Shown here one piece after another: positions 44,043 through 47,616 of a stretch of 47,616 nt of DNA. The notes under the pieces are model-generated. The model was not told the DNA's origin, searched no databases, and saw nothing but the letters and a program-made list of their open reading frames with translations. The stretch comes from Thermoplasmata archaeon. Its GTDB lineage: Archaea; Thermoplasmatota; E2; DHVEG-1. The stretch lies in assembly GCA_003942085.1 (NCBI GenBank), contig DQIQ01000010.1:1-47616 (forward strand), written 5' to 3'. Every line of letters begins with the position of its first letter. The first letter of the stretch is position 1. The translations under genes were made by a program, and so were the position numbers.

Positions 44043-44149
44043 ATCCATTTCATTCCTTGCTATTCGACCAATATTTGTATGACAAGATTTATATGAAAGA
44101 ACAGCGATATATACGCTAACCATAAAAAAAAATATTGGGAGATACTATT

Positions 44150-45397
44150 ATGAAGAAGAACATAAGCTATATATTAAAGGCAGCTGTAGTAATTGCTATC
44201 GCCCTTGCAATGATAGTTCCTGCAACGGCAATGAGTACAAATACGAAAACAATCTCTGGGAAAAAGTCTGTAAACACCCCAAACCCAATGAATCGGGACA
44301 TTATTTTCTCAGACAGCTTTGAATCCTACGAAGACTTCGTTGTTGATACATTTCTACCATGGACAACATTCGATGGAGATGGTGGCACAACGTGGGGTAT
44401 GCAGGGATATACCTGGCCCAATGCATACTATGTCGGTTCATTCATGATCTTTAATCCATCAATGACGGAACCCGCACTCGATGCTACTTATCCTGCACAT
44501 ACCGGGGCAAAATATGCATCGTGTTGGGATACTGAAACTGCGATGGCTCCCAATGATGATTGGTTGTTCACCCCGCAGTTGAGCGCTACCACGTATGGAG
44601 AAGTAAGTCTATGGGCTCAATCATTAAATGATATGTATGGTCTTGAGGATTTCGAAATCGGTGTTTCCACGACCGATACGACCCCCTCCAGTTTCACCAT
44701 TCTTCAGATAAATAACGATGTGCCGATTACCTGGACCCAGTACACCCTTGATATTTCATCATATTCTGGACAGGCTATCTATATCGGTATCCATGTTTTC
44801 TCAAACGATGTGTTTGCCTTCTTTATGGATGATTTCCAAGTCACCGGTACCGGTGGTGGCTCAGATACTATACCACCCGTGACGACATGCACATTAACAG
44901 GAACAGATGAAGTGACCGTGACCTTAAGTGCAACAGATTCCGGCTCTGGTGTGAACTATACGATGTACAAACTCGACGATGGCACATATACCACCTATAC
45001 CGCACCATTTATTGTGTCTACAACTGGTGACCACACAGTGTTTTTCTACTCTGTTGATTTCGCAGGCAATGTAGAGACGGAAAAAAGCCAGACCTTCACT
45101 ATTGCAACACCCATCACCATAACAATAAAAGGCGGAATGGGCGTGTCAGCAACCATTAAAAACACTGGTGCGACCGAACTGACCAACATCGACTGGACGA
45201 TCACCCTTGACGGGAAACTGATTTTCGTTGGAAAATCAAAGACCGGAACTATAGCAACACTCGCAGCTGGAGCAGAAGTCACGGTGAAAGACTTCGTTGT
45301 CGGCCTGGGTAAAACTGGAATAATCGTCACCGCAGGCACCGAGACAGCAAGTGCATCAGGAACAGCGCTCTTGATCTTGGTGATCGGGGTAAAATAA
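44150..45397 (+). CDS. secreted surface protein with choice-of-anchor/adhesin, OmpL47 and shared C-terminal modules
   Basis: About 415 residues; the start is the second ATG (44150), because GGGAG sits at the right distance. A signal peptide (AAVVIAIALAMIVPATAMS) leads to a lectin-like choice-of-anchor/cleaved-adhesin domain (about 50-235, DSFESYEDFV, CWDTETAMAPNDDWLFTPQL). Next is an OmpL47-like Ig domain (TVTLSATDSGSGVNYTMYKL, YSVDFAGNVE). The last roughly 95 residues (ITIKGGMGVSATIKNTGATE) closely match the next gene and distantly match 10879-12513. It ends with LLILVIGVK, too short to be a full membrane helix. A surface-attached or S-layer-associated role is likely. Confidence 0.8.
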   Translation: MKKNISYILKAAVVIAIALAMIVPATAMSTNTKTISGKKSVNTPNPMNRDIIFSDSFESYEDFVVDTFLPWTTFDGDGGTTWGMQGYTWPNAYYVGSFMIFNPSMTEPALDATYPAHTGAKYASCWDTETAMAPNDDWLFTPQLSATTYGEVSLWAQSLNDMYGLEDFEIGVSTTDTTPSSFTILQINNDVPITWTQYTLDISSYSGQAIYIGIHVFSNDVFAFFMDDFQVTGTGGGSDTIPPVTTCTLTGTDEVTVTLSATDSGSGVNYTMYKLDDGTYTTYTAPFIVSTTGDHTVFFYSVDFAGNVETEKSQTFTIATPITITIKGGMGVSATIKNTGATELTNIDWTITLDGKLIFVGKSKTGTIATLAAGAEVTVKDFVVGLGKTGIIVTAGTETASASGTALLILVIGVK

Positions 45398-45418: not shown

Positions 45419-45578
45419 CTTTTTTATATCAATTGAGACATACAATCTTTTCATTATGAACATATTGTTCTATTTCTTAGGGAGATAAAAAGATTAAAAC
45501 ATTCTAAGAATTTTATTCAATTAAGAATACAAAAATTTTATATACTATATGGTATATAATAGAACTTGGGGAAAAAAA

Positions 45579-46814
45579 ATGAAAAGCCAAAAATTTTTAA
45601 AAATAGCTGGTGTTTTGCTACTGTCAGTAGTAATGTTGGTATCGGCATCTACTGCGTTAGCAAATACAACAACGCTCACCACAAGCTACAAAGCAAACGG
45701 ACAACCACTAGGCACTCAAAACACAAACCGAGATGTCCTCTGGGATAATGGTTTCTACACATTAAACGCCCTCTCATCCCAAAACGATTTGGTATATCCG
45801 TTCAATTCGCAAGTTGCGGATGACTTCCAGTTCGGAAGCGGGCAAACAATAACAGAAATCATCTTCTGGGGATTCTGGTGGAACGGTGCAGCACCATGGC
45901 CAGATCCTATTGATTTAAACATCATCTTCTATGCTGATGATGGATCTGGAAACATGCCTACGGGCGCTGGTACAGCTGATCCTACACCCACTGCACTTCT
46001 CGTAGACTTCCACACAGGAGTTTCAGGAGTAGACAATGGAGATGGGTCATTTACCTATGATATCGTCCTGAACACACCATTCGCTGCAGCTGCGAACACG
46101 AAATATTGGGTAGCTTGTCAGTGGGTCGGTGCTTACCCACCTCAATGGGGCTGGTGTGTGAGTGACACGCAGCAACTCCACAGCTGTATGCAAGGATTCC
46201 CCTTATTAGGGACTCCCTACTGGACCGATCCTGGCCAAGGTGACGTCGCATTCCAACTGCTCGGTGGGGCTCCAACAGATACTACGCCACCAGTGACAAC
46301 CTGTGATATAACCGGGACAAACCCAGTGACCATCACCCTCACCGCAACTGATGATATGTCCGGTGTTAACTACACTAAATACAAGATCGACGATGGCGTA
46401 TATGCCGTCTATACCGCCCCAGTTGTCGTCTCTGATGCTGGCGATCACACTGTGTATTTCTACTCCGTTGATTTAGCAGGTAATGTAGAAGTAGAGAAAA
46501 ACGCTACGTTCACCGTAGAGGTACCCACCCTCACCATAACCATAAAAGGCGGACTGGGCGTCTCTGCGACCATTAAGAACACCGGGACAACAGATCTGAC
46601 TGATATCGACTGGACGATCGCCCTTGACGGGAAACTGATTTTCGTTGGAAAATCAAAAACCGGGACCATAGCAGCCTTAGCAGCTGGAGCAGAAGCCACA
46701 GTGAAAGACTTCGTTGTCGGCTTTGGTAAAACCGGGATCGCAGTCACCGCAGGGTCTGCAACAGCAAGCGCATCAGGAACAGCGCTCTTGATCTTGGTGA
46801 TCGGGGTAAAATAA
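45579..46814 (+). CDS. secreted surface protein paralogous to the preceding gene in its C-terminal half
   Basis: About 411 residues; I start at 45579 after a GGGG ribosome site. Signal peptide LLSVVMLVSASTALA. The N-terminal domain (about 45-230, DDFQFGSGQTITEIIFWGFWW) is a different carbohydrate-binding-like beta sandwich from that of the upstream paralog. The OmpL47-like part (TITLTATDDMSGVNYTKYKI) and the final module (ITIKGGLGVSATIKNTGTTD) are very similar. The last 52 bp, through the stop and beyond (46770-46821), are identical to 45353-45404. Modular swapping with conversion is apparent. Confidence 0.8.
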   Translation: MKSQKFLKIAGVLLLSVVMLVSASTALANTTTLTTSYKANGQPLGTQNTNRDVLWDNGFYTLNALSSQNDLVYPFNSQVADDFQFGSGQTITEIIFWGFWWNGAAPWPDPIDLNIIFYADDGSGNMPTGAGTADPTPTALLVDFHTGVSGVDNGDGSFTYDIVLNTPFAAAANTKYWVACQWVGAYPPQWGWCVSDTQQLHSCMQGFPLLGTPYWTDPGQGDVAFQLLGGAPTDTTPPVTTCDITGTNPVTITLTATDDMSGVNYTKYKIDDGVYAVYTAPVVVSDAGDHTVYFYSVDLAGNVEVEKNATFTVEVPTLTITIKGGLGVSATIKNTGTTDLTDIDWTIALDGKLIFVGKSKTGTIAALAAGAEATVKDFVVGFGKTGIAVTAGSATASASGTALLILVIGVK

Positions 46815-46830
46815 TCTAATCACCCCCCCT

Positions 46831-46876
46831 CTTCTATGATAATTCTGTCATGGAAGAGCTTCTTTCTCTTTTTTTT
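46831..46876 (+). terminator. hairpin plus T8 terminator
   Basis: CTTCTATGA (46831-46839) pairs with TCATGGAAG (46848-46856, one G-T) and T8 follows at 46869-46876. It ends the second surface gene and separates it from the transposable element. Confidence 0.6.
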
Positions 46877-46953
46877 CTCATGACATAATTACATCGTGTT
46901 GCACTTTTTTTTACAGTATCTTTATCAATCACCTCTCATTTAATGATATTGCT

Positions 46954-47106
46954 GATGGTGAGGTCGTTTGACGACACTCTTCTATACGGGTACAGATCCA
47001 CCCATCAAGGGGGTGGATTAGCCCACTATGGTGAGTCATTAGCTGCCCACTCTTTTTTACAGGGTACACAGCCCACGAGGAGGGAGGACAGCCGACTCTC
47101 ACCATC
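46954..47106 (-). ncRNA. structured segment beside the IS110 transposase, candidate guide (bridge/seek) RNA
   Basis: On the minus strand this lies just 3' of the transposase. GATGGTGAGGTCG (46954-46966) can pair with CGACTCTCACCATC (47093-47106, one bulge), enclosing 126 bases. Inside, ATCCACCC (46996-47003) pairs with GGGTGGAT (47011-47018). ATGGTGAG occurs twice (46955, 47028) and GGGTACA twice (46988, 47062); GCCCAC occurs three times. IS1111-type IS110 elements are known to encode a guide RNA downstream of the transposase. The fold and location fit, but the assignment is inference. Confidence 0.5.
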
Positions 47107-47128
47107 TTATACATGCATAAGCCTCAAA

Positions 47129-47616
47129 TTAGCAAGTTGAAACATATGGTTTCTTTGTCGTTAGCACCTTATAGATGATATCAACAAGAGTAGAAGCGAC
47201 CGCTATCTTTGCGATCCCGGATTTTTTCTTCTGGTTCTTTTTCCGTCGGTAGTATCGTCCCAGTCGGGTGTTGGTTTTCCCGATGGTGTTTGCTGCTTGG
47301 ACCAGTGCCCAGCGTAACAATGCTTTGCTCGTGGTCTTCGGGATTCTCCCAGGGGATGTAGTGTCACCAGATTCTTTGGAGAGGGGGATGACTCCCGCGT
47401 ACCTGCGGAGTTTCCGGTTTGATAGGAATCGTTCGATCGGATGGACAAAAGCGATGACGTAGCAGGGGAGTAAGACTCCAAATCCTGTGATGCTGCGCAG
47501 AAGATTGTATTCTAATTTCCAGTACGTTTGTGTATATCCGATGATCTCCTGATCCGCCTGTTCGTTTGTTTTCTCCAGATAGACATAGTGATTGTATTCG
47601 TAGCGGAGTTCCATAC
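47129..47616 (-). mobile_element. IS110/IS1111-family transposase, C-terminal part (cut by the window)
   Basis: The frame is open to the window edge, so only the last 161 or so residues are visible. SITGFGVLLPCYVIAFVHPI is the helix-hairpin-helix region at the start of the Transposase_20 domain. RKLRRYAGVIPLSKESG and the following RIPKTTSKALLRWALVQAAN are its signature, including the serine of the SG motif that is thought to be catalytic with the N-terminal DEDD domain. The N-terminal RuvC-like domain must lie beyond the edge. The structured 46954-47106 segment is its downstream flank. The frame looks intact, so the element may be active. Confidence 0.85.

Follow-up and report, generated by a model that had tools for sequence, protein, structure and literature searches.

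A probable guide RNA of IS1111 type beside an IS110-family transposase in an archaeon of the Thermoplasmata

The window analysed in this work, the whole stretch of 47,616 nucleotides, belongs to a contig of a Thermoplasmata MAG which stops within the gene of an IS110-family transposase. What remains of this gene, at 47129-47616 on the minus strand, encodes the C-terminal 161 aa and matches PF02371 only (E=3e-14). The complete protein has about 339 aa in relatives, and the full-length relative P0001 carries both PF01548 (DEDD, N-terminal) and PF02371 (Transposase_20, C-terminal) and scores 190 bits against NF033542 'IS110 family RNA-guided transposase' (cut-off 140), which places the enzyme, by way of this relative, in the broad IS110 family. 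Its best named plasmid relatives are haloarchaeal, with about 31% identity; a search of viral contigs found no relative, and an exact 17-mer match (L083) was discarded as a chance hit located in a phage coding region. The segment of interest, 46954-47128, starts past the transposase stop codon, on the 3' side. On the opposite side lies a surface-protein gene (45549-46814), whose stop is followed on the plus strand by the host flank 46815-46832, reading CCCCCCCTCT, the right half of the target described below. Together with the window gene at 44135-45397 and with genes on contigs C118 and C48 of the same genome, it makes up a set of paralogous genes for surface-type proteins. Their C-terminal ends and 3' flanks are nearly identical, which suggests recent duplication or gene conversion. 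Several copies of the element are located behind genes of this type.

The element extends beyond the interval marked in the first-pass annotation, up to 46833. Contig C48 (L003) is identical to the window over 46623-46833 and continues with CCCTCTTTTTTCTTTTTTATTC, an uninterrupted T-tract, where the window enters the element, so that divergence sets in precisely at the end that had been predicted. L026 and L027, two copies of a single genome, likewise have a common sequence up to the right end and differ thereafter. C48 therefore fixes the right boundary and supplies the target sequence, though it is probably not this locus before insertion but the corresponding position downstream of a paralogue whose 3' end is identical. 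Position 46907, at which homology stops, was rejected as the element end because the repeated copies and C48 lead to 46833.

Read inwards from this boundary, the right end consists of a 3-bp terminal extension (46833-46835), a subterminal inverted repeat with ATGATAATTC on the plus strand (46836-46845), a hairpin (46846-46893) and an inner inverted repeat TCGTGTTGC (46894-46902), which matches TCGTGTTGC at the left end of relatives. The stem of the hairpin is kept in 14 elements, while its sequence is wholly different between the two main types; read from the neighbouring gene, it contains a T8 tract. The left end in relatives, upstream of the transposase, is short, reads AGATGGY ATGATAATTC ... 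TCGTGTTGCAT and is the sole conserved part there, and every copy closes on the right with GAATTATCAT AGA; the left end of the window copy was placed by alignment of relatives only, its transposase being cut by the contig end. The subterminal repeats (ATGATAATTC/GAATTATCAT) thus measure 10 bp both in relatives and at 46836-46845, with extensions of 7 bp on the left (AGATGGY) and 3 bp on the right (AGA), as the IS1111 rule of 7-bp left and 3-bp right extensions prescribes (PMC11187229). Their length lies inside the reported range of 7-17 bp (PMC11208160), slightly under the usual 11-13 bp (PMC11187229). The inner TCGTGTTGC was rejected as the subterminal repeat since the outer ATGATAATTC fits the 7/3 rule. 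As in IS1111 elements there is no target duplication, and some 300 nt of non-coding sequence lie downstream of the transposase gene versus a left end of about 58 bp upstream of it. An upstream position of the guide RNA had been named as the arrangement that would speak against the initial proposal; no comparable conserved long non-coding region was found upstream of the transposase in relatives. At the right end of L029 the terminal 14 bp (GAATTATCATAGAA) occur twice in tandem, as if a second insertion had used the end of the first.

DNA homology spans the transposase through the segment in about 10 related genomes, with the same set obtained from GTDB contigs, and the nearest relatives with the element are Thermoplasmata. 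Eleven elements share the conserved downstream region, which accompanies the transposase across different genomes with different flanks. A covariance model of the segment, R1, found matches in 14 of the 390 genomes of the phylum, adjoining the transposase or as degraded or truncated copies. Beside IS110 transposases of greater divergence, archaeal or bacterial, the same model gave no match, so the RNA family is narrow, and Rfam 15 had no match to 46500-47616 up to E=1. Among the incomplete copies, L020 (G065:C154) and L021 (G011:C64) are solo right ends which retain just the 3' part of module 2 (see below) and the terminal repeats, with nearly identical breakpoints directly after the variable hairpin, while L035 (G017:C3) and L018 (G019:C93) carry internal deletions by which most of the putative guide RNA was lost and the transposase C-terminus and the right end were kept.

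All repeats listed in the first-pass annotation are present in the segment. These are a long-range inverted repeat (46954-46962 with 47098-47106, perfect over 9 bp), an internal hairpin with perfect 8-bp arms (46996-47003 and 47011-47018), ATGGTGAG at 46955 and 47028 with its inverse at 47098, GGGTACA at 46988 and 47062, and three plus-strand copies of GCCCAC (47021, 47044 and 47071). The repeats with a spacing of 73-74 nt represent one duplicated module and not unrelated repeats. The putative guide RNA, at 46954-47106 in the transposase sense (minus strand), accordingly consists of two tandem modules, in each of which GUGGG...CCC precedes a purine guide, and it is supported by conservation in the 11 elements, covariation and model R1. 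Two alternative folds, in which either ATGGTGAG pairs with the inverse copy, are possible as initially proposed; covariation speaks neither for nor against them because the nucleotides of ATGGTGAG barely vary.

In the transposase sense the target, taken from C48, reads ..GAAAAAA|AGAGGGGGGG. Loop sequences within the RNA match both the insertion target and the junction of the element, a comparison proposed in the first-pass annotation. The 5' guide of module 1, RNA UCCCUCCUC (47077-47085, minus strand), is a pyrimidine stretch directly 5' of UGGG and pairs with GAGGGGGGG on the target top strand through seven Watson-Crick and two G-U pairs, starting at +2. The 3' guide of this module, RNA AAAAAAGAG (47050-47058, minus strand), equals the top strand AAAAAAGAG across the insertion point and is hence complementary to the bottom strand. 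The left flanks matched by the 3' guides are A-rich. Guides and targets are low-complexity purine or pyrimidine runs, and about 2% of shuffles also yield nine letters in common with the target. With the same caveat of low complexity, the top-strand match of module 1 lies 5' of the bottom-strand match, the order reported for IS1111 seekRNAs. In module 2 the 3' donor guide, RNA AUAGAAGA (46978-46985, minus strand; repeat D5), equals the circular junction ATAGA|AGA and occupies the same register as the guide of module 1. As 5' donor guide we consider ACCAU (47028-47032, minus strand), a weak candidate of low information. It is complementary to the left-end ATGGT over 4-5 bp in the module 1 register and shares nucleotides with the stem that closes module 1. 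The role of left-end donor guide may instead fall to CACCATC (46954-46959), at the 3' end of the RNA, by 6 bp of pairing with GATGGT. It is in this choice that the two folds could matter, although the letters vary too little to distinguish them.

The number of consecutive pairs formed by the 5' guide is nine in the window (two of them G-U), eleven in L018, seven in L030 and L025, and six in L016. At positions 2-8 of nine elements, 49 of 63 cells are Watson-Crick pairs as against 41.9 in swapped guide-target pairs (p ~0.008), and 57 of 63 against 53.0 with wobble (p ~0.007); the swap test covers these nine elements only, its register was picked after inspection, and its p values (0.007-0.009) are nominal. 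When all 7-nt windows of the non-coding RNA were scanned against 13 target positions, the 5' guide of module 1 at +2..+8 was the most complementary (42/56 Watson-Crick), with a permutation z of 2.3, which is not the highest among 3281 tests in this underpowered scan. Changes in guide and target are matched at positions 2 and 4 (L025, L016, L017). On these comparisons of sequence, guide-target covariation is supportive, not proof.

The insertion sites follow a distinct pattern. In 12 of the 14 distinct insertions with a readable right-hand flank, the element lies 12-87 nt behind the stop codon of a convergent gene, in fixed orientation; the exceptions are L015/L016 (counted once) and L020. The same condition holds for 4% of position-strand combinations in the window (p ~1e-15), and with intergenic positions alone (about 27%, hand-derived from the same numbers) p is still ~1e-5. 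On the coding strand the target reads CTCTTTTTT, hence the element would insert into the T-tract terminators that directly follow genes; this is the best reading of these data. For euryarchaeal polymerases, short stretches of poly-U act as termination signals (PMC7289017), and T7 tracts of the window are concentrated behind genes. The T8 tract which the right end presents to the neighbouring gene may replace the interrupted terminator. We put at roughly even odds the broader proposal of an archaeal lineage of RNA-guided transposons whose guide reads a generic terminator signal, thereby gaining many safe sites in fixed orientation, and whose T-tract right end takes over as terminator.

The same pattern could arise if the RNA were real and the targeting of T-tract terminators were due to protein recognition or to selection against harmful insertions, the guide matches being a coincidence of composition. 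The low complexity of guides and targets and the nominal p values of the swap test speak for this explanation, as does the enrichment of T7 tracts behind genes in the window (24 seen, 5.3 expected). It is opposed by a register identical across nine elements and both modules, by a strand order as reported for IS1111, and by the matched changes at positions 2 and 4, and we regard it as improbable.

Folding of the minus strand gave -65.7 kcal/mol (z -3.4) and of the plus strand -68.1 (z -5.3), both beyond chance relative to shuffles; minimum free energy does not tell which strand is the RNA, but covariation does. On the minus, transposase-sense strand 96.4% of cells are paired versus 91.2% on the plus strand, and 23 G-U cells against 6 A-C cells also favour the minus strand. 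Compensatory changes between homologous elements, anticipated by the first-pass annotation, were found among 11 distinct sequences in 8 of 30 pairs with two-sided changes, comprising 21 such cells; none of 500 shuffles reached the pair or the cell count, and slid controls gave at most 7 cells. Five of the eight pairs come from the variable hairpin which caps module 2 (46996-47018, minus strand; helix 6), where five of six pairs have two-sided changes. The segment thus has a conserved secondary structure with compensatory changes. The inverted repeats and hairpin of the right end, together with good folding of both strands, would also suit a structured element end bound as DNA by the transposase. 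One-strand covariation with G-U pairs, the guide matches to target and junction, and the separate, clearly terminal inverted repeats at 46836-46902 all speak for the role of an RNA, and we hold this alternative for very unlikely. An unrelated plus-strand RNA adjoining the element by chance, for instance an element in the 3'UTR of the surface-protein gene before it, has the lower plus-strand fold energy in its favour and is practically dismissed, since pairing is better on the minus strand and the segment travels with the transposase across genomes and flanks, inside the element ends, at unrelated loci.

Conservation, covariation, the ends, the interrupted and uninterrupted sites, the guide matches and the insertion context together point to the segment being the guide RNA (bridge RNA or seekRNA) of an archaeal element which belongs to the IS110 family and is of IS1111 type, a reading which we give a probability of about 0.87 from sequence evidence. 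The original proposal, which placed a guide RNA of IS1111 type on the downstream side of the transposase, is upheld by the compensatory changes, the lack of a comparable upstream region, the IS1111-type ends and the loop matches to target and junction. Its archaeal setting stands too, but archaeal IS1111 elements are already recognised (PMC11187229). In the proposed mechanism the RNA would be transcribed in the transposase direction and bound by the DEDD transposase. The pyrimidine guide of module 1 would pair with the top strand to the right of the insertion point, and A5-6AGAG with the bottom strand to its left; the homologous module 2 would provide the matching guide or guides for the junction at which right end and left end abut in the excised circle, expected as ...GAATTATCATAGA-AGATGGY.... 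Junction and target would then be joined by the transposase at the common AGA core, leaving no target duplication.

Both the mechanism and the kind of RNA are already known from bacteria (PMC11187229, PMC11208160), and the IS1111 family is described as abundant in bacteria and archaea (PMC11187229). With the seekRNAs of ISEc11, ISKpn4 and ISPa11 (PMC11187229) the present system has in common the non-coding region downstream of tnp, the subterminal inverted repeat extended by 7 bp on the left and 3 bp on the right, the top-strand match placed 5' of the bottom-strand match, and a transposase of about 339 aa acting without target duplication. It differs in the repeat length (10 bp versus usually 11-13), in the inner inverted repeat and sequence-variable hairpin within the right end, and in the targets, which are T-tracts behind archaeal genes as opposed to REP, attC and the ISEc11 site. 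The bridge RNA of IS110/IS621 (PMC11208160) similarly belongs to a DEDD plus Transposase_20 enzyme and is a single RNA in which target loop and donor loop each hold two short guides, with a common core, but it lies upstream of its gene, its core is CT instead of AGA, and the strand order of its guides differs from that of module 1, which is of IS1111 type. Tandem paired guides, one per strand, are also a feature of the tigRNAs of TIGR-Tas (PMC12045711), whereas here there is neither an array nor a Tas protein (NF052498 scores 31 bits versus a cut-off of 100). Bridge RNAs have been likened to two fused tigRNAs, a description which the two tandem modules fit (PMC12045711). New are the member itself, its target class, the resolved anatomy and the unusual right end with its extra inverted repeat and hairpin of conserved shape. 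In this archaeal IS1111-type system the target guides, junction guide, ends and uninterrupted site can all be read side by side, and about 10 elements supply natural guide variants. It suggests that one guide reading terminators may open many harmless sites to an RNA-guided element, and its arrangement in two modules, with target and donor guides resembling duplicates of a single unit, bears on the origin of bridge RNAs.

An inverted repeat, TGTTGCAT ... ATGCAACA, is present just upstream of the transposase start in L029-L034, L017 and L015, where it surrounds the presumed ribosome-binding site and start codon. Its GCAAC motif recurs in the right end, and the repeat is a possible site of self-regulation.
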